DNA from: Bifidobacteriaceae bacterium
Lineage (GTDB): Bacteria; Actinomycetota; Actinomycetes; Actinomycetales; WQXJ01
Direction: 5' to 3'
Assembly: GCA_031278655.1 (NCBI GenBank)
Contig: JAITJZ010000074.1
Coordinates: forward strand, 1-52,839
Length of the DNA: 52,839 nt
Shown: piece after piece, positions 14,701 through 38,707 of the stretch
How positions within the stretch are numbered: position 1 is the stretch's first letter
Layout: each line of letters begins with the position of its first letter
Made by a program: the position numbers and the translations under genes
Notes under the pieces: generated by a model
The model's database searches: none
What the model was told of the DNA's origin: nothing
The model's input: the letters and a program-made list of their open reading frames with translations, nothing else

Positions 14701-17700
14701 AGTTTGGCGGCGGACCGCGCGGGCAATTTGGTCGACCAGTTCGCGGCTTCGCGGCGGATCGGCTGGAGCGGCGCCCTCGCCCCCGGCGAGGTGGTGACCG
14801 TCACTTACAGCGTCCAACTTGACGCCACGATGGGCGCCAGCCGCAGCCGGAGCGTGGCCTGGGTGCCGAACGACTGGTTGAACGTGGAAACGCCGGAGTG
14901 CGTCGACGCGGACAACTCTGGCACGGATGAGTCCACTGGCGAGGTCTGCGCGGCGGTCGCGCTGACGCCGCCGGTGCTGGAGGTGGCCAAGAGCTCGACC
15001 TTGGTCCGGCCCGGCGACCCGGACCCGCCGCCCTACGCGCGGCCCGGTGACCAGGTCATATATTCTCTCCACATCAAGAATGTCGGCAGCGGCGCCTACA
15101 CCGTCACGCACCCGGCGGTGGTGGTCGACTCGCTCAGCCAGGTGCTCGATGACGCCACCTGGGACAACGCCGCGCAGATCGTCTCCGGCCCGGGCGCCTT
15201 GGTCTGGAGCGCCGCCAACGAGCGCTTGACCTGGTCCGGCGACCTGTCGGTGAAGGCGGAGGTGGAGATCACCTATTCGGTGACGGTCAAGGCTGGCGGC
15301 GACGGCCAGTTGGCCAACGTTGTCTGGGTGCCGGAGGACCCGGATTCGGCGGGCGATCCGCCCGCCTGCGACCAGGCCGCCGGGGAGTGGTGCGCCTCGG
15401 GCCAGGTGGCGTTGCCGGAGTTGTCGATCACGAAGTCGGTCACGCAGACGCCAGCGGACGGCGCCTGGCAGGCCGGGGTGCGCCTGACCTACACGCTGAC
15501 CTTGGAGAACACCGGGCGGGGGGATTTTGAGGGGGTCAGTTTGGCGTCGGTCCGCGACGAGTTGGCGGAAGTCTTGGACGATGCCGTCTGGGTCCGTTTG
15601 GTCTCCAAGCCGGTCGCCGGGACCACGGTTTGGGACCCGGTCGACTCGGTGCTGACCTGGACCGGGCCGCTCGCCAGCGGGGCCGTGGTGGCGCTGGTCT
15701 ACGAGGTCGATTTGACGTCCGGCGGCGACGGGCAACTGCGCAACCTGGCCTGGTTCCCGTCGCAACCCGGCCTGGCCGATCCGCCGCCGCCGGACTGCGA
15801 GGCGCCGGTGAACGGTTTGGACCCGGACAGCGGCGAGCCGTGCGCGCTGGACGACAGGCTGCGGGCGATTCTGCAGATCGTCTCCAAGAGCGCCGATGGC
15901 GGGGCTTTCGCCCGCCCCGGGGACACCTTGACCTACACGATTGTGGCCCGCAACCGGGGGGCGGCTGATTTCACCGACGCCCGCCCGGCCGTGGTGGCGG
16001 ACTCCTTGGAGCAGATGCTGGACGAGGTTGAGCCGTTCGACCTGACCACGACCTCTGACGGCGGGGCCGGCGGCGTGTTCGGCTACACCCAGCCGGTGCT
16101 GCGGTGGCTGGGCCCGCTGGCGGCCGGGGCCGAGGTGACCCTGACCTACCAGGTCCGCTTGAAGGGCCTTGGCGACGGCGTGATCGACAACGTGGTTTGG
16201 GCGCCGAGCGACCCGACCTTGGCCGCCCCGGCGGCCCCGGGCTGCGATGATCCGGCGGCGGTGCGTTCGGGCGGGGTTTTCAACAGCTGGTCGGGGGCGG
16301 ATCCCGAGTCCCATGAGAGTTGCGCCAAGATCGAGTTGCGCCCGCCGATCATCGAGGTCTCCAAGACCTCGCAGTTGGCCGGGGCTTTGGGCCAGGCGGC
16401 CCGCCCGGGGGACCGAGTCGACTACACCTTCCGCCTGCGCAACGTTGGCCTGGGCGATTTCACGGACACGCACCCGGCTGTGGCTGTGGATTCCTTGGAA
16501 CTGGTGTTGGATGACACGGAGCCGTTTGACCTGACCACCGCCGCCGACGGCGGCGCCGGCGGCGCCCTCAGCTACGAGGCGCCGCTGCTGAAATGGTCCG
16601 GCCCGCTGGCCGCCGGGGCCGAGGTCGCCGTCACCTATTCGGTGATCCTCAAGTCCGGCGGCGACGGCCGCCTGGCCAACGCGGTCTGGCTGCCGGAGGA
16701 CCCGGACAACCCGGGGCTGGCGCCGGCCTGCGCCCCCGAAGGCGACTGGTGCGCCGCCGACGACCTCAAACTGCCGTCCCTGGCCATCGCCAAAACGGCA
16801 ACCCAGACGCCATCGGGCGGAAATTGGCAGTCCGGCGTGCGCCTGACCTACACCCTGACGCTGCGCAACACCGGGCCGGGCGACTTCACGGACGCCCGCC
16901 CGGCCGTTGTCCGCGACGACCTGACGGACATCATCGACGATGCCGTCTGGGCGGGCGTCGTCGCCAAGCCCAGCGGCGGCCAGGCGACATGGGCGTCACC
17001 GGTCTTGACCTGGTCCGGGCCGCTGGCCGCGGGGGCGGCGGCGGAACTGGTCTACGCCGTCGATCTGACGACCGACGGCGACGGTCGCCTGCGCAACCTG
17101 GCCTGGTTCCCGCTGGACACGGCGGTGGCTTCGCCGCCGGAACCGGGCTGCGAGGACCCGGTGGACGGGTTGGACCCGGACAGCGGCGAACCCTGCGCGC
17201 TGCTCGACCAGGTCCGGCCGATCCTCAAAGTCACGGCCAAGGCCGTCGAGGGCGAGGTCGACGGCGTGGTCGACGCCCATCCGGGCGAGACCGTCACCTA
17301 TCAACTGGACGTGCGCAACATAGGCCCGATCGACTTCACCGCCGCGGCGCCGGCGCTGGTGGCCGACTCCCTGGCCGACCTGCTGGACGACGCCGAACCG
17401 TTCGACCTGGCGACCGCCTCCGACGCCGGCGCCGGCGGCGAGTTCAGCTACGCGGCGCCGGTCCTGGAATGGCGCGGCGAATTGGCGCAAGGCGCCGGGG
17501 TCACCATCACCTACTCGGTGCGCCTCAAGGCCGGCGGCGACGGGCTGCTCAAGAACGTGGCCTGGGTGCCGCGCGACCCGGGGCCGGACCCGCCGGCCCC
17601 CGGCTGCGACCACCCCGACAGCGGCGGGATCGACCCGGAGACCGGCGAGTCCTGTGTCCTGGACGAAGTCGAACCGCCGATCTTAGACGTGGTCAAGACG

Positions 17701-18156
17701 GTTCAAGCGCCCGCGCCGGTGGCCGTCGGCAGCGTGCTCAACTACACCGTCAAGGTCACCAACTCGACGCCGTTCGACTTCCCGGCCGATCGCCCGGCCG
17801 AGGCCTTCGACGACCTCTCCGAGGTCCTGGACGACGCCTCCTACCAGGGCGACGCCGTGGCCAGCCGGGGCACGGTCCGCCGCGAGGGGTCGCGGTTGAT
17901 CTGGAGCGGATCGCTGGCGGCGGGCCAGACCGCCACCATCACCTATTCGGTCAAGGTGGTCGGCGCCGGCGACGGCCGCAGCCGCAACGTCGCCTGGGCC
18001 GAATGGTCGGCGCTGAGCGAGGTCACGGTCGCGGTTCCGGCCGGATTGTCCTCCACCGGGACGGATGTCTGGTTGGTAGCCTGGTTGGCGGGATTGGCGC
18101 TGGCGTTCGGCCTGACAGCGCACCGCCTGGCGCGATGGCGCGCCCGGCGGTCCTGA
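5731..18156 (+). CDS. Giant secreted surface protein with 24 DUF11-type modules
   Basis: 4,141 residues. A Sec signal peptide covers residues 1-43 (basic start, LLALAAAAALGLVGLVV core, likely cut after AKA). Next comes a CshA-like domain (SFSTGGTGRFRDLIDWFEWG) and a GEVED-like domain (WGWIDFNESHSFGAEDW, about 370-480). From about 493 there are 24 DUF11-type beta-sandwich modules of about 150 residues. The module consensus runs KTS...RPGDxVTYTVTxxNVG, DDLSxVLDDA, LxWSGPLAxGxTVTITYSV, GGDGxLRNVAW. Each linker carries a cysteine pair with DPD(T/S)GEPCA. The C-terminus (LSSTG, hydrophobic helix, RWRARR) resembles a non-canonical sortase signal. Known DUF11 proteins are wall-anchored stalks or adhesins; ligand unknown. 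One uninterrupted frame with a strong RBS supports an intact gene. A three-module block appears duplicated. Confidence 0.93.
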   Translation: MRRPRKAIGNKAKRGATRLLALAAAAALGLVGLVVAQPEAAKASFSTGGTGRFRDLIDWFEWGANVGDIVKAGTVTNIRTEGATKIETACTIFNISSKGNNKDPLRVKRPGSWKSDGFDNLYNIGGTDGNNQQLAGITHAVQGDLVTFTISCKMTLIDPKLGSTEVDLPGLVFADAEASGSDEYVTAKPGSGFTGWRIIDRYRGEDCKVSTIAKLANDDTLTLTSSASSECEAQDQKDGTFLGGGPTAVAFMEGTTSATVTIKGKGLSAVAIGVVSFIDWGDADSSYGAAGVLALPPWTGGLLQRGNTDLFEAVSATDPTPKFALAEVGSPGVRLGNLVDGEPAPLYSVTATGDDANNLDDEDLAIPATITGYRGGTVILNDLECVGDGRIWGWIDFNESHSFGAEDWGGPVPSAGQPVQPGSVPCASAVGEEAVFSMAWDVPADAKPQPVGKTAIVRMGITTDSRVTDEPVGVAITGELEDHAVDFLLDPYVVEKTSTATEDSRVGDVITYSVKITTPTATGTSTTPDTIVVKDDLSDVLDDATWLNQTGGGGAFSLDSSLLTWTGAPPAAGASKTITYQVQINGDVAGNRELKNVAWVDNPAVATTPACDIGVASGRDPDSDEPCASLNAETPSLALTKTSTNAADKRAGDLVTYTVTATNEGPGTFTEAAPATIWDDLSGILDDVELVSVSVDRPGGHLDATADAGDPYIGWSGPLADLQSVQLTYTVRLTAAGDGALRNVAWVRADPTPPAAPPTQSPACALSPDSVTGEVCAVVEFGLPRLEVFKQVDAPAEVRPGDVISFTVTAKNTGQAGFDSQRPLVLADDIQDIVDGLTYNGDGAAKISGAAAGQLTVDVLTGRLYWVGELAQGASVVITYSFTATGHGNGLAGNTAWAPRGQTAPAQGGDEPPPPDCLDQNNDPISDGGLDPKTGEPCAQVIEKRPLLRLSKTVRVEGGAGAIPGATVTYTITGANVGAQDYTEADPAPIWDDLTEVVASAAYNNDAKALIGQLDAPSQPAFSAGGADPTEARDLLKWSGPLAVGETVVITYSVTLAAGGAGTLRNVAWAQRADPPATPACDQAPPLPDDPTSRQVCAAAELARPLLEVTKVADASDARAGDTVHYTVTARNVGAADFTTNTTALVHDYLGDVMDDAAGPPTDLKASRGNPAVAAPSPVYLGDGIGQIRWEGVLAVGETVTIEYDVKLKPGGNGDVKNVAWSPLAANRSSAPPPPTACDGGFDKVTGEPCAEVGYRIPDFDLSKSFVVAGKGSGEPLAAGDELTFTILIENNSGAGYTGARPLVLTDSLASTLGDSTIKTKPAVTGVGAVDFDAAPLATYSGALGDGESATITYTVVLNAAGDGGFRNIVFAPGGGASAPPDCVDSGGVASAGAGLVDSATNQRCARVDVSFPVLRITKSSNMPSPWAPGRDVTYNVQVTNIGPAAITGATVMDDLSRVTGNACADWAQGSQTATSGAVTYAGGGTRPTVTWVGDLDAGASATFSFAVTTRACADNGLVNVAWQPADPADPDPQTPVCDGHPLDSASGEPCAKTDAPLPTVSLSKTHQITRGGQALTAGQAPRAGDVVTYTITAENVGSVPYTSLAPLVLRDDLSQIGDSARIDQASWANVWAPVDAADEGSFALVGGHMVWTGTLTVGQTLTLTFKATLLAGGDPVIRNVVWEPANPNQPDPPAPSECVVREDPKLGPRAATGEACADSTFARPVLAIAKTAQTFGADPLKTGDKVEFAVTITNTGSVGFPDTDPARFYDSLEDVLIGASYNQDAAIVGDDFLTMGAVSCQGDPCARIEWEGPLAAGASVTVTFSVTLEGRGEALLYNVAWAPTDPSGTAPPACPATGADPDTGEPCGRVELRRSLIHMEKVVEGPAAPRAGDTLTYSVTFRNVGDAGYDQEHPAYFYDDLSEVLANAKYNGDAATRDGSGAKTLSLDYDKPLIKWSGSLPAWGQVTLTYSVTLTGAGTASFTNVAWAPVDPDESAPADELKALCPPRQDVPGAGEVIRCASVTVDRGLLEIEKRVVDPPSLPHTGDTLTYEVTMTNSGAADYPESRPAVLRDDLTEVLTGAHYQADAAAVYSPAGAVPPAPVYSAPHLVWSGPLAQGQSVTVTYQVMLRSSETSQVSNLAWAPDQPFTATTPPPPPSCDAASGTGAGTGEACAQVTLDRGLLTLSKAVDLGGPQVVAQAGDVLTYTVTVKNASALAFGGADSAVAWDHLTDALKEADWVAGSLSASVGAASYKPPTEADPTAKIKWSGPLAPAGEDGDTATFSYSLKVTALGNGLIRNVAWVPFNPHAANPDSPTCQASTDGQPVISISSGELCAGLDVRSPLLALSKFSSPRGPALPGDVIDYSIVATNVGGAAFTAERPAVLKDDLSTILDDVELVGTPTATLGQAEVDSDGELTWEHELAVGQTVTISFKVKVIGGGDGQARNVVYQPFDPPAGPVACDQATGAADPGTGQACAFDNHPLGKLTLTKALLTPAPHAQGKQAQYQIMIENTGGAAFTPAKPATVVDDISGLLDGGRFNNDQKAVGAGGLEVGALSYAEPLLTWTGALNPGEVVTLTYSVTWLAIGDGLMRNVVWQPADPDHPQAPACANLSGVDPDTGEPCAATDDRRPLLEIDKTSTPGGTPLTAGDQVSYTLTAKNVGQADYTDGFKAVVEDSLSALLGAATFNHDAAAKINGQPVSDPVFRADTARLRWEGPLAQDQTVTITFSITLLAGGLGVGRNLAWSPVDPEMETPPRPTCSAADAAAGRDSLSGEPCDEDVYHRPTLSLTKSSDATSPKPGDIVTFTLVAMNTSEVDFTDQVPGIVRDYLGDVLDDASFAWPQAATVTGPTPGELTYDDKEAMLTWSGALKAGESVTITLVVELLPTGDGYVRNVAWRPNLPGQTAPEPPDCPISGIDPETVEPCAVTQFDKSGLKLTKTASPADPMPGVTVDYTVTLKNTGRIPFTESAPVWLWDDLTDVMGTLVGGSLAADRAGNLVDQFAASRRIGWSGALAPGEVVTVTYSVQLDATMGASRSRSVAWVPNDWLNVETPECVDADNSGTDESTGEVCAAVALTPPVLEVAKSSTLVRPGDPDPPPYARPGDQVIYSLHIKNVGSGAYTVTHPAVVVDSLSQVLDDATWDNAAQIVSGPGALVWSAANERLTWSGDLSVKAEVEITYSVTVKAGGDGQLANVVWVPEDPDSAGDPPACDQAAGEWCASGQVALPELSITKSVTQTPADGAWQAGVRLTYTLTLENTGRGDFEGVSLASVRDELAEVLDDAVWVRLVSKPVAGTTVWDPVDSVLTWTGPLASGAVVALVYEVDLTSGGDGQLRNLAWFPSQPGLADPPPPDCEAPVNGLDPDSGEPCALDDRLRAILQIVSKSADGGAFARPGDTLTYTIVARNRGAADFTDARPAVVADSLEQMLDEVEPFDLTTTSDGGAGGVFGYTQPVLRWLGPLAAGAEVTLTYQVRLKGLGDGVIDNVVWAPSDPTLAAPAAPGCDDPAAVRSGGVFNSWSGADPESHESCAKIELRPPIIEVSKTSQLAGALGQAARPGDRVDYTFRLRNVGLGDFTDTHPAVAVDSLELVLDDTEPFDLTTAADGGAGGALSYEAPLLKWSGPLAAGAEVAVTYSVILKSGGDGRLANAVWLPEDPDNPGLAPACAPEGDWCAADDLKLPSLAIAKTATQTPSGGNWQSGVRLTYTLTLRNTGPGDFTDARPAVVRDDLTDIIDDAVWAGVVAKPSGGQATWASPVLTWSGPLAAGAAAELVYAVDLTTDGDGRLRNLAWFPLDTAVASPPEPGCEDPVDGLDPDSGEPCALLDQVRPILKVTAKAVEGEVDGVVDAHPGETVTYQLDVRNIGPIDFTAAAPALVADSLADLLDDAEPFDLATASDAGAGGEFSYAAPVLEWRGELAQGAGVTITYSVRLKAGGDGLLKNVAWVPRDPGPDPPAPGCDHPDSGGIDPETGESCVLDEVEPPILDVVKTVQAPAPVAVGSVLNYTVKVTNSTPFDFPADRPAEAFDDLSEVLDDASYQGDAVASRGTVRREGSRLIWSGSLAAGQTATITYSVKVVGAGDGRSRNVAWAEWSALSEVTVAVPAGLSSTGTDVWLVAWLAGLALAFGLTAHRLARWRARRS

Positions 18157-25590: not shown

Positions 25591-26664
25591 TCAGGCCAGC
25601 GACTTGGAGTAGAGGGCGTAGTGGTGGCTGCGGGTGATCTGATCTGGCAGGTAGTGGGCGGTCGGCGCGTCCTCATGGATCAGCGCGCCGATGGCGGGGA
25701 CGCCCAGGCGGGCGGCTCGGGCCAGTCCGGGCAGGGTCAGGGCCGGTCCCAGGCCGCGATAGGCCCGGTCGACCGCCAGGTAGGAACAGATCAAGGCGCC
25801 CGGGCGCAGTCGCCGGGCGAAGATGGCGGCCAGCGCCCGCGCCGGTCCGGAGTCAAGTGAGCGCCCGAAATCGGGCGTCACGGCGGCGAAGCCGACCAGT
25901 CGCTCGTCGGCCCAGGCCAGCTGGCTGGCGCGGCGGTCCAGGAGCCGGCCGAGTGGCCGCAGCAGGGCCGCGAACTGGTCGAACGTCAGCGGATGAAACT
26001 CCGCCATGATGGCGAAGCGATCCATCACCAGGCCGTGAATCGCCGCCAAGGCGGCCTCGAAGCCCAAGCCCAAGGGCCGGACTTCGACGCCGTTGGCCTG
26101 GGCGTGGGCGCGCACGGCGGCCGGGCGCCACGGGCCGTCTGCGGGAACTCGCGGCCGCGCCACAACGCTGGAATGGTAGCGGCCGGTGACCTCGTAACCG
26201 GAGGCCTCCCACAGGCCGGGGTATTCGGGTCGGTTGAACGGCTCGCCGAAGAACGGCGGCACATCGAAATGATCCAGTTTCATCCGATACCCGACCCAAT
26301 AATCGGGGTCGAACGGCCCCCGGATGGCCAAGGCGCCGCGATCTGCCGCCAGCGCCTCGGCGGCGGCCAACAGGGCCGGCGCGGCGGCCAGATCGAGGCA
26401 TTCGAAGAAGCCGAGGCGGGCAACGGATGAGCCGGACCGGAAACAGACCGCGCAACGGCCGGCGGCCCGCCCGTGCCGATCGACCGCCAGCAGCGGGCGG
26501 AAGTCCAGGTCCGCGGACAGCGGGTGGCGGCTGGCCAACAGCGCCGCCTCGTGGTGGGCTTGCCCGCCCCTGAAACGTCGGTCCGGGTAAACCCGCTCGA
26601 CCAGGCCGCGCCATTCGGCGCCGGTCGACGATCCCGCCTCGGCCGCGACTATTCGCCAGTTCAT
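25591..26664 (-). CDS. YghO-like GNAT-family acyltransferase
   Basis: 357 residues from the ATG at 26664. The protein resembles YghO-type proteins. It has the conserved block LGFFECLDLAAAPALLAAA...RGPFDPDYW near residues 110-150, followed by FFGEPFNRPEYPGLWEASGYE, and a C-terminal GNAT fold whose acyl-CoA-binding turn reads VDRAYRGLGPAL near 305. YghO relatives are often found beside lipid-synthesis genes, but their reaction is unproven. It is the last gene of the lipid operon and its ATG overlaps the stop of the PS decarboxylase fusion by four bases (ATGA). From context it may acylate an amino headgroup or a lipid intermediate; this is inference. No signal peptide or membrane helix is seen. 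Confidence 0.7.
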   Translation of the reverse strand: MNWRIVAAEAGSSTGAEWRGLVERVYPDRRFRGGQAHHEAALLASRHPLSADLDFRPLLAVDRHGRAAGRCAVCFRSGSSVARLGFFECLDLAAAPALLAAAEALAADRGALAIRGPFDPDYWVGYRMKLDHFDVPPFFGEPFNRPEYPGLWEASGYEVTGRYHSSVVARPRVPADGPWRPAAVRAHAQANGVEVRPLGLGFEAALAAIHGLVMDRFAIMAEFHPLTFDQFAALLRPLGRLLDRRASQLAWADERLVGFAAVTPDFGRSLDSGPARALAAIFARRLRPGALICSYLAVDRAYRGLGPALTLPGLARAARLGVPAIGALIHEDAPTAHYLPDQITRSHHYALYSKSLA

Positions 26665-29600
26665 GATCCGCCCCCCGGCTGCCCGGGAACCGACCCGGCC
26701 GCGCCCGGCCGCCACTCGCCGCCAGCCCCGCCAGTCCTGCCAGTCCTGCCAGTCCCGCCAGAAGCCCCGCCAGCCCCGCCAGAAGCCCCGCCACAAGCCC
26801 CGCCAGAAGCAGCGCCAGAAGCAGCGCCAGAAGCCCCGCCAGAAGCCCCGCCAGAAGCACCGCAGGCCAACAGCTCGACCGTGCCAGCGGCGCCGTCGAG
26901 TCTGAGCCGGTCGCAGTCAGCCAGCAGGCTGGTGGCGCCGGCCACGCCGGCCACGAAGGGCACCCCCAACTCGCGCGCGACGATCGCCGTGTGGGACAGC
27001 AGCGATCCCTTCTCGCTGACCACGCCCGCGGCGGAGGCGAGATGGAAGACCCAGCCGGGGTCCGTCGCCTCGGTCACCAGGATCTTGCCCGCCGCCGCGC
27101 CGGCCTCGAGCGGGCCGCGCACCACCAGGGCCGGCGCCTCCCTCCGTCCGCCGGAGCAGCCCTCGCCCTGGAGCACCAGTCCGGCCGCCCGCGGCGGGGC
27201 CGGCGCGCCAACCCCGTCGCCCCGCCCGCCAATGGTCGAGCGCGGCACGATCAGCCCGGCGAACTCGACTCGCGGATAGGCGGGCAGCCTTCCGTAGGCG
27301 GCGAGTTCGCGCCGCCGCCGCTCGACCAGGGCGCGGGCGTCCGGCGGGCCGCCCTCGGCCAGCGCCTCAGTCAGCGTCAGATGGGTCACGTCCTCGGCGC
27401 GCGCCAGTCGCCCCGAACGCGCCAACTCCAGGCCGCGGAGCCGAAAAAGCTCTCGGACCATCCCGAACAGCCGCGACCGGTCCAGCCGCGACAGCTCTCG
27501 CGCCTCGACGCCCGCCCGCGCCCGCCGGGCCAGCCAGCGGGCCGCCGCCCGGTGGCGACGGGGGAAGACGCTGTCCGCCGCCGGAGCCGTCGGCAGGGCG
27601 TCGTTTTGCCCGATGCCGTGCCCGCGTTTGGCCGCCCCGGCCTGGTCCGCTCGCCCCGGCAGGCGCCCAGGGACCGCCGGCTCGGCCGGCCAGGTCTGCC
27701 CGATGCCGTCCACCAGCGCCCGTATCAGCGTCAGCGGATGGGACCGGGCCGTCTCGGTTTCGAGTTTGAGTTCGCCGGTGGCGCGGTCGCCGTAGCGGTC
27801 GATGAAGTCTTTGAGCGCGCGGGCGAAGCCGCCATGCGGCCGCCCGGCCGCCAGCCAAGCGCGAACGTCCTGGTCAGAGGCCAGAACTCTGAGGAAGGCG
27901 GCCAGTTCCGGATCGGCTTGAACCGACCGGCCCAACTCCTGCCTGGCCGTCAGCGGCTCCAGCGACACCAGCGGCCTCCCTTGGGCGATGAGTCGCGCGG
28001 CGGCATCGGCCGGGCGGGCCACACCCGCCCGCTTGGCCAGGGCCGTGAGCGCCGCCGCGAAGGCGAAGGCGTGGATGTCGTTGATCAAGGTGACATCCCA
28101 GCGCGGCCCCAACTCGTCGGCCAACCAGCCGTAGATCGCCGCCGCTCTTGGTGCGCTCAGCCCGCCCGCGCCGGGCCCGCCCGCGCCGGGCCCGCCCGAG
28201 CCGGAACCACCCGAGCCGGAACCGCCCGCGCGGGAACCGCCCGAGCCGGGACCGTCCGCGCCCGAGCCCGCCCCACTGGTGTCCCCGCCCGTTCGATGTC
28301 CGCCCGCGGCATCGCCGGCGAGTCGACGCCAGAACTCGCGCTCGACGGCCGCGAAGCGGCCATGCAGGGCTTCCACCAGCGCCGGCGCCCGCGCCACCGC
28401 CAGCCCCAATGACAGCCACAGCCGCACCCGATGAGCCGGCCCCAGCGCCGGGCCGGCGCGGAAAGCGCGCTGGCGCACGCCCAACATGTCCTGCCAGGCC
28501 GCCACCACGACGCGCGGGAACGGCAGCAGCGTCAGCAGCGCGTACCAGTTGGAAATCTGGTAATACATCCGCCCGCCCCACCAGGCGACCATCGCCCGCA
28601 GGTCGCCGTCGCGCTCGCGCGCCACCGCCGCCGAACCCAACCGCTCCGCCAACGCCCGGAACACCCGGTGATAGATGTCGCCCGCGAACGAGGCGGTCAG
28701 CGCCCGGCTCAGCCCCGGATAGCTCTCGACCACGTTTGAGTTGTCGAGGATCACCCCGCCGCGCCCGAGCGTCGTGACAGGTCGCGCCTGCAGCAGCCAA
28801 AGTTCGCCATCGTGCCCGATGACGACCTCTAAGTCGGCCGGGGCGCCCAGTTCGCGCACGGTCGCGTCGGCCAGGGCTGTCAATTGGTCGAGCTGGTCGC
28901 GGGTCGCCGTGGGCCCTTCCCCGGGGCAATCGGCGCTGATCAGCGCGCGGTCGCCGCCCGGTGGGCGATAAATCAGATAGGTGGCCAGGGCGGTCGAATC
29001 GTCCACGCCGGCGCCAACGCCGCGCCCCAGGGTGATCACAGCCTCGTCCAGGGGGCCGACCGGGTTGGATGTGAAGACCACGCCGGAGAGCGCGGCCGGG
29101 ATCATCGGCTGGATCACCACGCCGATCAGCGACTCGGCCAGGCTGGCCCGCCCGCAGGCGCGGGCATAGGCGAGGGCGGCCGGGCTGAAGGCCGAGCGCC
29201 AGACCTCGAGCACGGCCGCGCCCACATCCGGGCCGGGAACGCCCAGGCGGGTCAGATAGCACCCGGCCGCGGAGCGCTCGGCCCCGTCCTCGGCCAGCGC
29301 CGATGAACGCACAGCGTAGAGCCCGTCAGGGCGGACGCCCTGGCCGATGGCGCGCCTCAGGTCCGCGCCCAACTCGAGGTCCGCCAGAACGTCCGCGGCG
29401 ACGGCGGCCGCCCGGGCGGCATCGGGCAAGGCGATGGCCGCGGCCAGGCGCTCCCAAACCGGTGTCACGGCCGAGCGCATGGCGGCGACGGCCACGGCCG
29501 CGAAATCGGGGACGGGCAGACCGGCGCCGCGCAGCCGGGCCAAGGCCGCCGCCTTGGGACCGGCGGCGCCGTCGCGGGCGCCGGCGGCGTCGAGCCAAAA

Positions 29601-30608
29601 CCGCGGCGTCCCAAAGTCAGGCGCGGTCCCGCCGAGGCCGGCGGCTGGCTGAGCGGCTGCCGGGCGGCCGGACGCCGCTGGCAGGTCGGGGCTCGCTGGG
29701 AGGCCGGCGGCCGGCTGAGCGGCCGCCGGGCGGGGCGTGATCAGGCCGATGCGAGCGCCGAGGGTCACCCTGGTCTCCAGGCCGCGGCGGCTGAGTTCGA
29801 CGATGTCTGGGTCGATCGCCACGCGGCCGGGCGCCAACAAGACCACCAAAGTGGACCCGCCCAGGTCGAACCGGCCCTGCTCCTGGCCGCGCGCGAAGGT
29901 GGCGGCGCCGGCGTCGACAATCCGCCCCACGGTCAGGGCCCCGACCGCGATCACATAGGTCAGGCCCAGGTTCTCAGCCTCGAGCAGGCTGACCAGGCGC
30001 TGGTTGTGGGCCAGCGCCGGGCGCCCGGCCGAGGCCGGGCCAACGCTGTCCAGCCGACCCGGGATCCAACGCCGCCAGCGGGTCCGGCCCGCGTCCTGGT
30101 AGACGTAATGGTGGAAATCGTCCACCGACAGGCGGAAGACAAGACACCAACCGCCTTCGAAGGCGGCCGTCGGCGCCGAGGCGCCCACCAATTCGCCCAG
30201 CCGGTAGCTGACGCCCTTGACCGTCACGGCCCGGCCCGGCCCGGTCGGCTGGGCCAGCAGCTTGGAGTCGGCCGGGGCGATCAGATGGGTCGGCGTCTGA
30301 TCGATCGGCCGGGCGCCCGGCCGGGGCCGCCGGGCGAAGAAGGCGGCGAAGCTGGGCCAGTCGGAGGCGTCGCATTCGTCGAGGTCAATCCCATGTGCCG
30401 CCGCGAACGGGGCGATCCGCCGGGCGGACGCCCGGCTGCGGGCCGGGGCCGCCGCCAGGCGTGAGAACCAGGGCCGCGACACCGCCCAATTGACCAGCGC
30501 GCGGCCGGGGCCGGCGCCATAGATCAGTCCGAGCGCGCGCGGCGACGGCACGGTTTCCTCGAGCCAACGGCCGGTGGCGCGGTCGAAGACGCGGCTGGCC
30601 GGGTTCAC
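26661..30608 (-). CDS. Phosphatidylserine decarboxylase fused to an RPH-like dikinase
   Basis: 1,315 residues from the GTG at 30608, which overlaps the pssA stop as GTGA. Residues 1-300 are a PS decarboxylase proenzyme: PIDQ...LIAPADSKLL near 101-118, FHHY near 165, VGALTVGRI near 222, and the self-cleavage site GST at 251-253, whose Ser would become the pyruvoyl group. Residues about 345-650 are a PPDK/PEP-synthase ATP-binding domain (GPKAAALARL; YAVRSSALAEDG; LLQARPVTTL). A long middle domain and a swivelling phosphohistidine domain (EKGSLLSHTAIVARELGVPF, near residue 1200) follow. There is no PEP/pyruvate TIM barrel, so this part matches rifampin phosphotransferase (RPH) architecture, not PEP synthase. 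Two low-complexity blocks come from minisatellites. The phosphate acceptor is unknown. Confidence 0.85.
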   Translation of the reverse strand: MNPASRVFDRATGRWLEETVPSPRALGLIYGAGPGRALVNWAVSRPWFSRLAAAPARSRASARRIAPFAAAHGIDLDECDASDWPSFAAFFARRPRPGARPIDQTPTHLIAPADSKLLAQPTGPGRAVTVKGVSYRLGELVGASAPTAAFEGGWCLVFRLSVDDFHHYVYQDAGRTRWRRWIPGRLDSVGPASAGRPALAHNQRLVSLLEAENLGLTYVIAVGALTVGRIVDAGAATFARGQEQGRFDLGGSTLVVLLAPGRVAIDPDIVELSRRGLETRVTLGARIGLITPRPAAAQPAAGLPASPDLPAASGRPAAAQPAAGLGGTAPDFGTPRFWLDAAGARDGAAGPKAAALARLRGAGLPVPDFAAVAVAAMRSAVTPVWERLAAAIALPDAARAAAVAADVLADLELGADLRRAIGQGVRPDGLYAVRSSALAEDGAERSAAGCYLTRLGVPGPDVGAAVLEVWRSAFSPAALAYARACGRASLAESLIGVVIQPMIPAALSGVVFTSNPVGPLDEAVITLGRGVGAGVDDSTALATYLIYRPPGGDRALISADCPGEGPTATRDQLDQLTALADATVRELGAPADLEVVIGHDGELWLLQARPVTTLGRGGVILDNSNVVESYPGLSRALTASFAGDIYHRVFRALAERLGSAAVARERDGDLRAMVAWWGGRMYYQISNWYALLTLLPFPRVVVAAWQDMLGVRQRAFRAGPALGPAHRVRLWLSLGLAVARAPALVEALHGRFAAVEREFWRRLAGDAAGGHRTGGDTSGAGSGADGPGSGGSRAGGSGSGGSGSGGPGAGGPGAGGLSAPRAAAIYGWLADELGPRWDVTLINDIHAFAFAAALTALAKRAGVARPADAAARLIAQGRPLVSLEPLTARQELGRSVQADPELAAFLRVLASDQDVRAWLAAGRPHGGFARALKDFIDRYGDRATGELKLETETARSHPLTLIRALVDGIGQTWPAEPAVPGRLPGRADQAGAAKRGHGIGQNDALPTAPAADSVFPRRHRAAARWLARRARAGVEARELSRLDRSRLFGMVRELFRLRGLELARSGRLARAEDVTHLTLTEALAEGGPPDARALVERRRRELAAYGRLPAYPRVEFAGLIVPRSTIGGRGDGVGAPAPPRAAGLVLQGEGCSGGRREAPALVVRGPLEAGAAAGKILVTEATDPGWVFHLASAAGVVSEKGSLLSHTAIVARELGVPFVAGVAGATSLLADCDRLRLDGAAGTVELLACGASGGASGGASGAASGAASGGACGGASGGAGGASGGTGRTGRTGGAGGEWRPGAAGSVPGQPGGGS
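26737..26868. repeat. Minisatellite in the 3' end of the decarboxylase-dikinase gene
   Basis: Repeated CCGCCAGAAGCC / CGCCAGAAGCAG-like 12- to 15-base units. On the minus strand they encode a tail of GASG repeats after the phosphohistidine domain. Confidence 0.8.
28161..28270. repeat. 15-bp minisatellite within the dikinase middle domain
   Basis: About seven copies of a CCCGCCCGAGCCGGA-like 15-base unit. They encode GSGSGGPGAGG-type linker sequence on the minus strand. Frame is kept. Confidence 0.85.
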
Positions 30609-31309
30609 CGCACCGCCGCCAAACCCGCCGTCAGGCCCACCGCCACCAGGATCAAGACCGCGTTCCAAAAGCCTCTGGGCTTGGCCACGGGCACATCCCA
30701 GACGAACAAGACGGCCAGGACCAACAAGCTCCCCGCCATCAGCCAGCCCAACTGGGCGGGGGCGAAGGCCAGCCCGGCCAGCCCGGCCAGCGGCGCCACC
30801 AGGGCGGCGTAGGTGACCGGCAGCCCCCGGTAGTGGGTCAGCCGCGGCGCGGGCCGCTCCGGCTCAGGGTTGACGGCCGGGCTGGGCGCGGCCGGGTCGC
30901 TCGGCCCGCCGGATTGGTCGGCCAGGCCCGCCGCCGGCTCGCTGCCCGCCGCCCGCTCGTGGGCGTCGGCGTCGAACCAGGCCAGGCGCGTCAGGCCGGC
31001 GATGACGTAGACGGTGGCGGCCGCCCAGGCCCAAGGCTGCGAACCGGTGGCCAACGTGACCGCGGCCGGGAGCGCCAGGAAGCAGACGGCATCGGCCAAG
31101 GAGTCGAGCGCCACTCCCAACCGGCGTTCGAGGGCGGTGCGCTGGAAACGGCCGGCGAAGGCGCCGTCGAAAAGATCGGCCAGCCCGGCGGCGGTCAGGC
31201 AGATCAGCGCCAAGGCGACCTCGCCGGCGCCGGCCCAGCCGAGCCCGGCCACGCCGGCCGCCACCCCGGCGTAGGTGACCAGGTTCGCCGGATGCGGGCC
31301 CGCCAGCAT
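30605..31309 (-). CDS. PssA-like CDP-alcohol phosphatidyltransferase
   Basis: 234 residues from the ATG at 31309, which overlaps the upstream gene's stop as TGATG. It is an integral membrane enzyme of the CDP-alcohol phosphatidyltransferase superfamily. The active-site segment reads LFDGAFAGRFQRTALERRLG followed by VALDSLADAVCFLALPA. The DSLADxVxF...PA ending is typical of phosphatidylserine synthase (CDP-diacylglycerol plus serine gives PS and CMP). The spacing in the first half differs from the classical DGxxAR-x8-G pattern. A Pro/Ala/Glu-rich cytosolic loop sits at about residues 121-154. It lies directly before the PS decarboxylase fusion, which supports a PS-to-PE function. The lipid part of its substrate could be unusual given UbiA upstream. 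Confidence 0.8.
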   Translation of the reverse strand: MLAGPHPANLVTYAGVAAGVAGLGWAGAGEVALALICLTAAGLADLFDGAFAGRFQRTALERRLGVALDSLADAVCFLALPAAVTLATGSQPWAWAAATVYVIAGLTRLAWFDADAHERAAGSEPAAGLADQSGGPSDPAAPSPAVNPEPERPAPRLTHYRGLPVTYAALVAPLAGLAGLAFAPAQLGWLMAGSLLVLAVLFVWDVPVAKPRGFWNAVLILVAVGLTAGLAAVR

Positions 31310-33876
31310 CAGGCCTCGCCCAGCAAGGTGACCGTCCCGGCGGCGCCGTCGACCTCGACCATGGCGCCGTCCGGGATGGCGGTGGTCGCCCCGGCCAACG
31401 CCACCACGCAAGGGATGGCGAACTCCCGGGAGACTATGGCGGCGTGGCAGAGCATGCCGCCGTGTTCGGTGACCACGCCGCCCAGGCGGGCGAAGGCCGG
31501 CGTCCAGCCGGTGTCGGTGAAGCGGGTGACCAGGATGTCGCCTTGGGCGAGCCGCCCGATCTGGTCCAGGGAGTCGACCACGCGGGCGCGTCCGCGCCCG
31601 GTCGAGGCTTGGCAGCCGATGCCTTGGAGGCGTTCGCCGGCGGCGCTGGGTCTGACCGGCGCCCGGACGCCGACGCGGTCGCCGATCTCATCGGGTCCGC
31701 GGTAGTTGCGGTAGGCGGTGAAGTAGCGCCGGTGGCGGTCGATCTGTTGGCGCAGTTGGGCCGGGCTGGCCCGGCCCTCGATGACCGCCCAGACTTGGCC
31801 GACCTCGGTGAACCAGAGGTCCTCGGCGCGCTCGATCACACCGCTGGCCGCCCAATGCTCGGCCAGGCGCAGGGCCGCCTGCCGGATCACGTGGTAGTGC
31901 TTGGTCGAGACGTCCCGGAAGGCCTCGCGCCACCACAGCAGGCGCCGCATTTGGCGGACTTTGGCGGTCAGCGCCCGGACCCGGCGGGGCGGGACCGCGG
32001 CGCGGAGGCGACCGATGGCGGCGGCGAAGGCCGCCTCGGCCCTTTCGGCGTCGCGGCGTGGCGAGGCTTCGTCCGACAGTTCGAGGTTGGCCCGCAGGTG
32101 GCGGATGACGGCCGCCGGGTCCTCCGCGAACGACGGCTGGGTGATGTCGAGTTCCCGGTCTGAGTGGTGGCCGTGGCGCTCCAGCCAGGCGCGCAGTTCC
32201 GCCAGCTGGGCCCGGCCGGCGTCGATGGCGCCGGGGCCGGCGGCGCCTTCGCCGGACAACGCCCGGGCGATGGCCTGGGGTTCCGTTTGGCGCCACCAGC
32301 GGGCGGCCGCCGGATCGGCCAGGATCCGCCGTGACAGCTCCCACAGTTCGTAAAACGGGGCCAGATGGGAAACGGCGCCCTGCCCGCCGCCTTGCCCGCC
32401 GCCTTGCCCGATGCCGTGCCCGCCGTTTTCGCCGCCCGCCCGCCGCCCTTGGGCCAGGTCGGCGTCGATCCGCGTGCCCAGGCCGCCGATCAACGCCAGG
32501 TAGTCGCCTGGGCCGACGTGCTTCAGAATGGTCGACTTGAACAAGGGCTGGTGGACCTGGTTCAAGAAGATTTGCGAGAAATAGGTCGATTCGCTGGCCA
32601 GGTAGTCGTCCTTGGTGATGCCCAAGAACAGGCCCGGCAGCGCCTCGGGGGCGGCCGCCGCCAGCGCCGCCGTCCGCGCCTGATAGGTGGCCTCCAATTC
32701 CGCCCTCAGGCGCCGCGCCGACCGCAGCCGCCGGCGCAGCCAGATCGTCTCCGTGACGGCGACCCGCGCCACCGTCCAGGCCGTCCGGGGCGTCAAGCGG
32801 GTGGCCTCGCCGTCGCCCTCATAGGCCGGGGCGATCCCAAGGTCCTCGTCAAACTCGCGTTCGACATAACCCGGCACCCGCGCCATGGCCTCTTTGGCCA
32901 ACTGGGCGTTCCAGTATGGCCGGCCGTGAAAGACCCGGCTGGCGCGCCGCCAGCGCTTGGCCGGGAGCATGCCGGAGCCGATCAGGAACTCGGGGAAGGC
33001 CCGCTCCCAGATGTACTCGTAGAGCGACCACATGAAGGGCGGGAAGACCGCCGAGGAGACGCCGCCGTCGCGGAAGTCGGCGGTGGTCCAAGTGTCTTCG
33101 ACCCCGGCGTGGTTGATGGATGTGATCGGCCGAGACTGGACCACGCGCACCTGGTCGCCGTCGAAGACGGCCTCGATGTCGCAAGGCGCGCCGGCCCATT
33201 CCTGGATCCGCCAGACCGCGTCCCACAGGTTCTCCAAACCGCGGGCGCTGACCGGTGAGGCGGCGGCGGGTGGCGGCGCGGCATCGGGAATCCGGCGCTC
33301 CAGCCAATCGTGAACGTGCCTTTGGGCGCTGATCCGCCCGCCCACCAGGTCGGCCGCCGGTCCCGGCGCGAGTTCGGCCACGGCCACGGTGTCCGCGCCG
33401 GTGACCGGATCGACGGTGAAGACCACGGCCGAGGCGGTGGCGGGGGCCATCCGCTGGATGATGACGCCCATGTCCGGGTCCGGCGCGGCGCCGGCGTGGT
33501 CGCGGTAGGCGGCCGGGCGCGCGGCCTGGCCGGAGCGGTAGCAGCGCACGATGGCGCCGGCCAAGTCTTCGCGGCGCACGTCCAGACAGCTCTCAAACTG
33601 CCCGGCGAAGGACAACTCGGCGCCGTCCTCCTGTCTGCCGGATGAGCGGACCGCCCAGCGGGCGTCGGGGAAGGCGGCGGTGGCGGCGTCGATGGCGTCC
33701 AGGGCGGCCTGCGGCAACGCCCCGCTGGCGCGGAAGGCCTGGCAGATCGCCACCGGCGCAACCCAGCCTGGCGGGACGCCCACGTCCAGCGCCGTCAATT
33801 CGCCCAGGGTGGCGGCTTTGCCGCCTACGGCGGCGGCGTCGAGTCCGGGCCTGAGCGGCGCCAACGGTTCGGTCAT
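31309..33876 (-). CDS. Stand-alone RPH-like ATP:alcohol phosphotransferase (dikinase)
   Basis: 855 residues from the ATG at 33876, which overlaps the previous gene as ATGA. The N-terminal ATP-binding domain shows VGGKAATLGEL near residue 16, WAVRSSGRQEDGAELSFAGQFES near 75, and VVQSRPITS near 260. A middle domain of about 450 residues follows, then a C-terminal phosphohistidine domain (TEHGGMLCHAAIVSRE, His near residue 810). It ends there, without the PEP-binding barrel of true PEP synthase. This size and order match rifampin phosphotransferase (about 865 residues), which uses ATP to phosphorylate a hydroxyl group and releases AMP and Pi. In this operon the acceptor may be a lipid alcohol (inference). 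A Gly/Gln-rich linker near residue 495 carries the CCGATGCCG motif. Confidence 0.82.
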   Translation of the reverse strand: MTEPLAPLRPGLDAAAVGGKAATLGELTALDVGVPPGWVAPVAICQAFRASGALPQAALDAIDAATAAFPDARWAVRSSGRQEDGAELSFAGQFESCLDVRREDLAGAIVRCYRSGQAARPAAYRDHAGAAPDPDMGVIIQRMAPATASAVVFTVDPVTGADTVAVAELAPGPAADLVGGRISAQRHVHDWLERRIPDAAPPPAAASPVSARGLENLWDAVWRIQEWAGAPCDIEAVFDGDQVRVVQSRPITSINHAGVEDTWTTADFRDGGVSSAVFPPFMWSLYEYIWERAFPEFLIGSGMLPAKRWRRASRVFHGRPYWNAQLAKEAMARVPGYVEREFDEDLGIAPAYEGDGEATRLTPRTAWTVARVAVTETIWLRRRLRSARRLRAELEATYQARTAALAAAAPEALPGLFLGITKDDYLASESTYFSQIFLNQVHQPLFKSTILKHVGPGDYLALIGGLGTRIDADLAQGRRAGGENGGHGIGQGGGQGGGQGAVSHLAPFYELWELSRRILADPAAARWWRQTEPQAIARALSGEGAAGPGAIDAGRAQLAELRAWLERHGHHSDRELDITQPSFAEDPAAVIRHLRANLELSDEASPRRDAERAEAAFAAAIGRLRAAVPPRRVRALTAKVRQMRRLLWWREAFRDVSTKHYHVIRQAALRLAEHWAASGVIERAEDLWFTEVGQVWAVIEGRASPAQLRQQIDRHRRYFTAYRNYRGPDEIGDRVGVRAPVRPSAAGERLQGIGCQASTGRGRARVVDSLDQIGRLAQGDILVTRFTDTGWTPAFARLGGVVTEHGGMLCHAAIVSREFAIPCVVALAGATTAIPDGAMVEVDGAAGTVTLLGEA

Positions 33877-34466
33877 AGCGGGCTCCGGCGCAGATGGGCC
33901 AGGTAGAGGATGGCGTTGAGGGCCAGATGCGTGGCCCCGCCCAGAACCACCCACCAGGCCGCCTCCAGCGGCGTCAGGCGCCCGGGCAGCCAGGCCACCG
34001 CCACCAGGCCGATGATCGAATCGCACTGGTCGAGGGCGATCAGCGCGTGCTTGACCGGGCCTGTGGCCGAGCGGCCGGGGGCCACGCCCAGGCGGCGCTT
34101 GAGGAACGAGTTCGGCAGTTCGAACAGGGCGTAGGCCGCCCCGAGGGCGGCCCCGAACCAGAGGCTGACCCAGGGGCTCGCGCCGAAGCGCAGATAGACG
34201 CGGTCGCAGGCGGCCAGGCCGGGGGCGGCTTGGCAGAGCCAGCCCCAGGCCAGCGAACAGACGGCGGCCAGGACGATCATGCCGATGAGGCCCTTGTAGG
34301 TCTTGTTCGGCCCGAACCAGGGCCGGCCGTCGCGCCACCGGCGGTCGCCGTCAAGCGGCGCGTTCGCTTTGCGCGCCAGCGGCAGTTTGACCCAGACCAT
34401 GTTCAGGACGCCGGCCAGCAGGGCGGGCATCAGGGTCACAAAGGGTTCGGCGAGCCAATGCCGCAT
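33873..34466 (-). CDS. CdsA/CarS-like CDP-lipid synthase
   Basis: 197 residues with four to five predicted membrane helices. Motifs fit the CTP-transferase superfamily of CDP-diacylglycerol synthase (CdsA) and archaeal CDP-archaeol synthase (CarS): FGPNKTYKGLIGMI near residue 51, ELPNSFLKRRLGVAPG near 116, and the metal-binding LDQCDSIIGLV near 144. The short length and the GPNKTYKG/SFLKRR arrangement are closer to CarS than to 270-residue bacterial CdsA. It would activate a phospholipid acid with CTP for the PssA-like enzyme encoded further along the operon. It directly abuts ubiA upstream and overlaps the dikinase gene downstream by four bases. Confidence 0.8.
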   Translation of the reverse strand: MRHWLAEPFVTLMPALLAGVLNMVWVKLPLARKANAPLDGDRRWRDGRPWFGPNKTYKGLIGMIVLAAVCSLAWGWLCQAAPGLAACDRVYLRFGASPWVSLWFGAALGAAYALFELPNSFLKRRLGVAPGRSATGPVKHALIALDQCDSIIGLVAVAWLPGRLTPLEAAWWVVLGGATHLALNAILYLAHLRRSPL

Positions 34467-35372
34467 CTAGGTTCCCCACCCCGCCAGATGGGCGGCGATC
34501 AACGCCACGACCGTGCCCTCGGCCGCGTATTCGTACCATTGCACCCGGCTGACCAAGGCGAAGGCTTGGGGGCGGCGGATGAAGCGGAGCGATTGCCAAA
34601 CCAGCCAGGCGTAGGCTCCGGCGACGGCGATCACCGCCCAAGGATACAGTTTCCAAACCAGGTACGAGGTTGTCGCCAGGTCGGCCGCCATGACGCCCAG
34701 AATGAATAGAACCGGCCGTCTGACACCGAACAGTTTGGAATAGGTGGTGTATTCCGTCTCGTCTTCCGGGGCTCGGATTTTGCGCGCGATTTCCCAGATC
34801 AGGCCGGGGAAGTAGAGGGTCAGCGCGATGGCAGCGTTGGGGAGGGTGATGAGCGGCACATCGTATTTGTGGCAGGCGAAGGAGATCACGTAAAGATTCA
34901 TCACAATCTGGACCGGATTGTGCGTTATCAGCGCCAGCGGCAGGCTCGGCTGGATTTTGGCCTTGGCGAAGAACCAGAGCGACATGGCGGTGCCGTAAAC
35001 CGCCAGGAAGGCGAACCAGGCCAGGTTGTTCATCAGGGCCACATTCAGGCCGATGACGGGCAGGTCGACGGCCGCCAGCAGGACGGCCAAGTCCAGGCGG
35101 TGCACCCGGCCGGAGGGCAGGGCGCGGTCCGGGAAGAGCCGTTGGTCGCTGTGGAAGTCCTTGAAGTCGTCCGCGATCCGCAGTGTCAGGAGAAAGGCGA
35201 AGATCGTCAGCGTGCCGACGGCCTCCTGCCAGCCCAGGCGGATCGGGCCGATCTGGGTTTGATTGGTCAGTAGGACCAAGAAGTAGATCTCGAAGAACAG
35301 CACCGCCGCCAATCCCAGCCGGGGGAGGACCGGGTACATCTCCTTGAGGTAGACGCGCAGGCGTTTGGGCAC
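34467..35372 (-). CDS. UbiA-family prenyltransferase
   Basis: First gene of the six-gene lipid operon. UbiA enzymes are membrane proteins that move a prenyl group from a polyprenyl diphosphate to an aromatic ring or to a glycerol-phosphate lipid. The first Asp-rich motif is clear: RIADDFKDFHSDQRLFPDRALPSG, near residue 65. The second is acidic but divergent: RKIRAPEDETEYTTYSKLFG, near 205. About eight hydrophobic segments fit. I place the start at GTG 35372 (VPKRLRVYLKEM, 301 residues) because the longer frame runs through the divergent promoter region; the ribosome binding site there is weak, so the start is uncertain. The acceptor cannot be told from the sequence. Confidence 0.82.
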   Translation of the reverse strand: MPKRLRVYLKEMYPVLPRLGLAAVLFFEIYFLVLLTNQTQIGPIRLGWQEAVGTLTIFAFLLTLRIADDFKDFHSDQRLFPDRALPSGRVHRLDLAVLLAAVDLPVIGLNVALMNNLAWFAFLAVYGTAMSLWFFAKAKIQPSLPLALITHNPVQIVMNLYVISFACHKYDVPLITLPNAAIALTLYFPGLIWEIARKIRAPEDETEYTTYSKLFGVRRPVLFILGVMAADLATTSYLVWKLYPWAVIAVAGAYAWLVWQSLRFIRRPQAFALVSRVQWYEYAAEGTVVALIAAHLAGWGT

Positions 35373-38332: not shown

Positions 38333-38707
38333 GCACCCGGCCGGTTTCGGGGCGCCGGGCAACGCCGCCAGCGCCATTGACGCCGATGCCGTCGGTGCCG
38401 CCGGTGCCGCCGGCGCCGTCGATGTCCGATGCCGCGCGGTCGCCTTGGGTCGCGCGGTCGCCTTGGGTCGCGCGGCCGGCTTGGGTCGCCCGGCCGGCTT
38501 GGGGCGCCCGGCCGGCTTGGGCCCCGCTGGACGGGGCAGCGGGACTGGCGCGGCGGCATCGGGCGGCTTGGCGGCAAAACCGGTCCTGCGGCCTTACCAT
38601 TGAAACTCGGCCGCCCGCCGCGGCGGCCAGTGATAGCAGAAAGGTGCCAGCCTTTGAACGCTGCGCGCAGAGACCCGGGCCGAGGCCGAACTCGACCGCC
38701 GGGGACG
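38333..38707 (+). other. Gap between acnA and dxs
   Basis: No gene supported. It contains GCC-rich runs, three copies of CCGATGCCG/CGGCATCGG (38383, 38426, 38554), an 18-bp tandem array and a possible ribosome binding site (agaaaggtg near 38638). An open frame runs through it in phase with dxs, but that part shows no similarity to DXS and is repeat-derived. Confidence 0.7.
38434..38523. repeat. 18-bp tandem array, five copies
   Basis: Units GCGCGGTCGCCTTGGGTC (twice), then GCGCGGCCGGCTTGGGTC and two further variants, start at 38434, 38452, 38470, 38488 and 38506. It lies upstream of dxs and, because 18 is a multiple of three, keeps an open frame that could mislead start calling. Confidence 0.9.

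Follow-up and report, generated by a model that had tools for sequence, protein, structure and literature searches.

A phosphatidylserine decarboxylase joined to an RPH-type dikinase in a conserved operon of lipid-type genes from Bifidobacteriaceae

The window, a 52,839-nucleotide contig from a Bifidobacteriaceae metagenome-assembled genome (MAG), encodes a protein in which a phosphatidylserine decarboxylase (PSD) is followed by a rifampin-phosphotransferase-like (RPH-type) dikinase. The fusion is best explained as the lineage-specific joining, in one small actinobacterial group, of two enzymes from one conserved lipid operon; a probability of about 0.6 is given to this explanation as a whole. 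The operon, absent from an earlier sequence-only reading of the window, is a more informative feature than the fusion itself. It lies on the minus strand, in the order UbiA-like, CarS-like, dikinase 2 (dk2), PSS-like, PSD fused to dikinase 1 (dk1) and GNAT, and every junction overlaps or abuts:

34467..35366, minus strand: divergent UbiA-superfamily prenyltransferase (NF010118 type); core conserved, start approximate; NF010118 at 368 bits (cut-off 443), alignment
33873..34466, minus strand: CarS-like CDP-lipid synthase; PF01864 at 29.1 bits (cut-off 22), PRK04032 at 57 of 148 bits
31309..33876, minus strand: dk2, RPH-type; ATG at about 33876 overlapping the CarS stop (ATGA); PF01326, PF00391, motifs
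30605..31312, minus strand: CDP-alcohol phosphatidyltransferase, archaetidylserine-synthase-like (PSS); ATG at about 31310 at the dk2 stop (TGATG overlap); PF01066 at 37.7 bits, TIGR04217 at 49 bits (cut-off 200)
26661..30608, minus strand: PSD::dk1 fusion gene; 1315 residues from GTG 30608; open frame, overlapping junctions, homologous fusions
29739..30608, minus strand: PSD domain, residues 1-290; Asp (APADSK), His (DDFHH), GGST 250-253 at about 29861-29850; PF02666, residues kept in relatives
about 29559..29738, minus strand: Pro/Ala-rich inter-domain linker, residues about 291-350
26859..29558, minus strand: dk1, RPH-type; ATP-grasp domain, substrate domain with ARELSR, swivel domain with SHTAIVARE
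26661..26858, minus strand: low-complexity Gly/Ala/Ser C-terminal tail, poorly conserved
25591..26664, minus strand: tandem-GNAT transferase-like protein; ATG 26664 overlapping the fusion stop (ATGA)

The CarS-like protein scores over its Pfam cut-off and under the NCBIfam equivalog cut-off, and the PSS-like protein is also under its NCBI cut-off. The GNAT-like protein has no Pfam or NCBIfam match; the predicted fold of its homologue at locus L002 matches tandem GNATs. Elsewhere in the window, a gene for 1-deoxy-D-xylulose-5-phosphate synthase, of the isoprenoid precursor pathway, is found at 38429-40579 on the plus strand, about 3 kb from the UbiA-like gene, and a 4141-residue protein resembling surface adhesins, with a CshA domain and numerous DUF7927/DUF11 repeats, is encoded at 5731-18156, also on the plus strand.

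The minus-strand frame 26661-30668 is open throughout its 1335 codons. GTG 30608, which overlaps the stop of the upstream gene (GTGA), is the most likely start. Numbered from the TTG at 30668, the frame matches PF02666 at residues 107-306 (125.7 bits, cut-off 22), the ATP-grasp family PF01326 at residues 369-636 (95.5 bits) and the phosphohistidine domain PF00391 at residues 1193-1262 (74.8 bits), all well over the Pfam cut-offs. The open frame and these domains bear out the sequence-only reading, which had proposed an uninterrupted frame joining a PSD to an RPH-like dikinase and had placed the linker near 29,650-29,720, close to the position found here (about 29,740-29,560). Both enzymes are whole, since stand-alone PSDs align up to residue 288-290 and stand-alone dk1 proteins from about residue 331-350. 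There is no ATG, GTG or TTG between residues 289 and 350 of the window fusion. The dikinase is therefore not easily made alone, and a separate dk1 starting in the linker at one of these three codons is ruled out.

The fused PSD retains the catalytic Asp and His and the GST self-cleavage site, which was correctly assigned beforehand to residues 251-253, exact when counted from GTG 30608; every one of the 19 aligned PSDs has the His and the GGS. Cleavage is predicted to give a beta chain of 251 residues (27 kDa) and an alpha chain of about 1064 residues (108 kDa). In known PSDs, the beta chain remains bound to the alpha chain after self-cleavage, and the same is expected here. The earlier idea that cleavage would free a short beta chain from a dikinase-bearing alpha chain thus holds for the unusual make-up but probably not for the freeing. 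The unusual point would be the inverted size ratio, the predicted alpha chain being about four times as long as the beta chain and carrying the whole dikinase.

The catalytic residues are retained in the dikinase half as well, to judge from the aligned sequences. Its GPK, VRSS and SHTAIVARE motifs are the equivalents of Lys22, Arg117 and the C-terminal swivel His, and ARELSR aligns to YREYPK of RPH-Lm. In RPH-Lm, the corresponding residues are Arg117, Arg666/Glu667 in the phosphotransfer site and His825 (PMC4844700); no dk1 member that covers the region lacks their counterparts, VRS, the R-E pair and SHTAI. Modelled with AlphaFold2 (mean pLDDT 79.9, pTM 0.62), the L002 fusion consists of folded bodies and an unstructured linker at 296-321, where pLDDT is below 50. 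A Foldseek search matches its dikinase part to RPH-Lm (E about 1e-29; about 930 aligned columns with 5hv2 and 5hv1) and its PSD part to the E. coli enzyme (E about 1e-7). The global TM-scores, 0.28-0.37 by query, are low, as expected for a mobile multi-domain protein, so that the fold match rests on local fold and residues.

The earlier designation of the dikinase as rifampin-phosphotransferase-like is apt for fold and motifs. It does not extend to function: against the NCBIfam equivalog for rifamycin-inactivating phosphotransferase (RIF_Ptrans), the fusion dikinase scores 153 of 999 bits, far under the cut-off, and no rifamycin resistance function follows. The PEP-binding barrel PF02896 of pyruvate, water dikinase and PPDK is absent from both the fusion and dk2, and present in a separate gene of the genome on contig C89; PEP synthase is thereby ruled out as the identity of the dikinase. 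Among its relatives are phenol kinases, RPH and prodigiosin ligases. Its substrate is tentatively taken to be a lipid or polyol alcohol.

The same joined frame was found by a scan of genome contigs in L002 (JAIRTF010000025.1), from a MAG deposited as Bifidobacteriaceae, where the fusion has about 1220 residues. Among 18 genomes of the window's family searched with PF02666, a PSD was present in five (G000, G001, G004, G006 and G012). The full fusion occurs in G000, which is the window's own genome, and in two others, G004 (its contig being the same sequence as L002) and G012 (locus L015); in G001, which belongs to another genus (locus L016), it runs to the contig end, inside the dikinase. In G012 and G001 the operon order is that of the window, as far as the contigs reach. 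The PSD of G006, considered as a further fusion, was rejected: it is unfused, of a different type, and its contig does not carry the cluster. Most of the genomes are MAGs (the window's own is 92.65% complete, G004 72%), and their sampling is partial.

Overall, the two other full fusions are about 62-68% identical to that of the window, with 70-72% in the PSD part, 68-70% in the dikinase part and 36-40% in the linker. Differences are in excess at third codon positions in both enzyme halves, indicating purifying selection. As the same fusion is present in independent genomes, sequencing error, frameshift or chance is ruled out as the origin of the joined frame. Of the outcomes named beforehand, recurrence in several genomes is what was observed, and a frameshift between two genes is not, the frame being joined in L002, G012 and G001 alike. 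Among plasmid records, none covers 80% of the fusion. The open-access papers searched yielded no description of the fusion, of the cluster or of a PSD of this kind, in line with the sequence-only reading; on the basis of this search, the fusion is taken to be previously undescribed.

Relatives of the operon were found in Clostridia. Of 396 genomes sampled across the phylum, one, the window's own, has the UbiA marker NF010118 at E≤1e-30. Around the clostridial genome G413, the marker was detected in 11 of 298 genomes of the same family and 7 of 391 of the same class, both counts including G413. In all, the marker is present in 17 clostridial genomes, most of them with the cluster. In 14 clostridial loci the PSD is a gene of its own, in the order PSD-UbiA-dk1 in 13 of these, and several have an AMP-dependent ligase after the GNAT. 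In the actinobacteria, UbiA heads the operon, which leaves the PSD adjoining dk1; loss of the stop codon between these neighbours would yield the fusion. In the trees, dk1 includes the fused dikinase, whose sister is L034 (0.97); dk2 forms a separate clade (1.0), and the fused PSDs form one clade (1.0). Horizontal transfer is likely, given that the UbiA proteins of the window and of Clostridia are about 50% identical and that the marker is rare in the phylum. As PSD and dk1 are separate in Clostridia, fusion is not needed for function. A different fusion within this set of genes occurs at L043 (G589), where a GNAT is joined to an AMP-dependent ligase (831 residues, 6200-8695) near a UbiA-like gene, with no CarS, PSD or dikinases nearby.

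The PSD half could be the cell's ordinary PSD, making phosphatidylethanolamine for the bulk membrane, with the dikinase joined to it by chance. The fused PSD is indeed the sole PSD found in the window's genome and in its three fusion-bearing relatives. This explanation is nevertheless considered unlikely: PSD and dk1 share the cluster in the 14 clostridial loci, the clostridial chromosome G985 encodes a second PSD away from its cluster, and a dedicated pair of CarS-like and PSS-like genes adjoins the fusion although CdsA is encoded elsewhere.

An ordinary CdsA was found elsewhere in seven of the eight genomes tested, the exception being the 72%-complete G004. The CarS-like enzyme would therefore be an additional CDP-lipid synthase. 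The CdsA match of the window's genome (G000:C158:3987-4793) has one in-frame TAG. No full-length GGGPS/PcrB (PF01884) was found in 15 cluster genomes, which gave two short weak matches only. Taken together, CdsA in seven of eight genomes and no GGGPS in 15 look like a parallel head-group pathway for a non-standard lipid, which may be prenylated.

The late enzyme types of the operon (UbiA, CarS, CDP-alcohol serine transferase and PSD) are also those of the archaeal archaetidylethanolamine pathway, which comprises GGGPS, DGGGPS, CarS, archaetidylserine synthase and a decarboxylase. The operon differs in the lack of GGGPS, a divergent UbiA, two extra dikinases, a GNAT and bacterial hosts. Canonical archaeal lipid synthesis was rejected on the lack of GGGPS in the 15 genomes. 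Production of true archaeal-type ether lipids (archaetidylserine, archaetidylethanolamine) would fit the CarS-like and archaetidylserine-synthase-like matches and one UbiA-like sequence that matches DGGGPS weakly (E=0.0014). It is judged improbable, as besides the missing GGGPS the UbiA family profile has no PDB match, and the archaeal route is not known to have a step for two RPH-type dikinases.

The best-supported reading of the operon, whose gene content, linkage, residues and predicted folds are described above, is that it would provide a second amino-phospholipid route beside the CdsA route, with a non-standard lipid core and with dikinases supplying phosphate esters. We infer the product, the substrates and the following order of steps. 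The UbiA-like enzyme would make the lipid core, probably prenylated. The RPH-type dikinases would convert ATP to AMP, Pi and a phosphate ester, the phosphate being carried on the swivel His, and would so add phosphate to the alcohol groups of intermediates. The CarS-like enzyme would then form a CDP-lipid, in which the CDP-alcohol transferase would exchange CMP for serine. Self-cleavage of the PSD half at Gly251-Ser252 would be followed by decarboxylation of the serine head group, giving ethanolamine. Acylation of the product, or of an intermediate, is the probable role of the GNAT, joined in several Clostridia by the AMP-dependent acyl ligase. The fusion would keep the decarboxylase and the kinase together and at equal levels, although neither chemistry requires it. 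It is tentatively proposed, at rather less than even odds, that the clusters of actinobacteria and Clostridia encode a bacterial route to membrane lipids that has not been described before. In this route, prenylated lipid alcohols would be phosphorylated by RPH-type dikinases ahead of CDP activation, in place of the missing GGGPS step, and the fusion would be a Rosetta-stone link.

Each half of the fusion has a characterized counterpart. The PSD shares its fold, catalytic Asp/His and GGST motif with E. coli Psd (PF02666, PDB 7cnw); by contrast, its predicted alpha chain would carry a full dikinase (108 kDa in all), and its gene adjoins a CarS-like gene, not cdsA. The dikinase shares the ATP-grasp domain, the central substrate domain, the C-terminal swivel His and the Arg/Glu of the second active site with RPH-Lm (PDB 5fbs, 5hv1; PMC4844700), and differs in a score under the RIF_Ptrans cut-off, a diverged substrate domain, its lipid-gene context and the attached PSD. 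HpeHI, a catabolic two-component phenol dikinase of the RPH type, is split over two chains and acts on small hydroxyl substrates (PMC12167813). HpeI (9goj) is a structural match of the fusion dikinase, which is entire and shares one chain with the PSD.

The operon might make a small specialised product rather than a membrane lipid, by prodigiosin-ligase- or phenol-kinase-like chemistry: the dikinase superfamily also includes PigC/RedH and HpeHI, and clusters for such products often contain GNATs and AMP-ligases. This is given very little weight, as CarS, PSS and PSD all belong to enzyme types of lipid head-group metabolism and the conserved gene set contains no transporter and no peptide or polyketide synthase. 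If the operon instead makes a prenyl or other non-standard amino-phospholipid, as preferred here, its product would be an additional membrane-lipid class for gut-type bacteria. A lipid substrate would also be added to the dikinase superfamily, in which rifamycins, phenols and pyrrole pigments are the substrates of the characterized members that do not act on pyruvate. The fusion links an orphan RPH-type dikinase to the pathway of a PSD-type decarboxylase, in a cluster beside normal phospholipid genes. With an alpha chain four times longer than the beta chain, the fused PSD would also be a test of what PSD self-cleavage tolerates.

Variant clusters give hints about the dikinases. L033 has no dk2 at the locus (judged from 19 kb) and has a DgkA-type kinase (PF01219) beside CarS at 12002-12367. 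Enzymes of the DgkA family are lipid-alcohol kinases. The arrangement in L033 suggests a lipid-alcohol kinase step before CarS, and hints that dk2 does the same elsewhere. A DgkA-type kinase also lies beside CarS in L036 (4167-4745), with no dk2 on the available stretch; in both of these clostridial clusters it may replace dk2. In L041 (G434), dk1 (5759-7333) has only 524 residues, begins right after UbiA and lacks the whole ATP-grasp domain, which the dk2 of that cluster retains. The truncated dk1 resembles the HpeH/HpeI split, a hint that dk2 may charge dk1.
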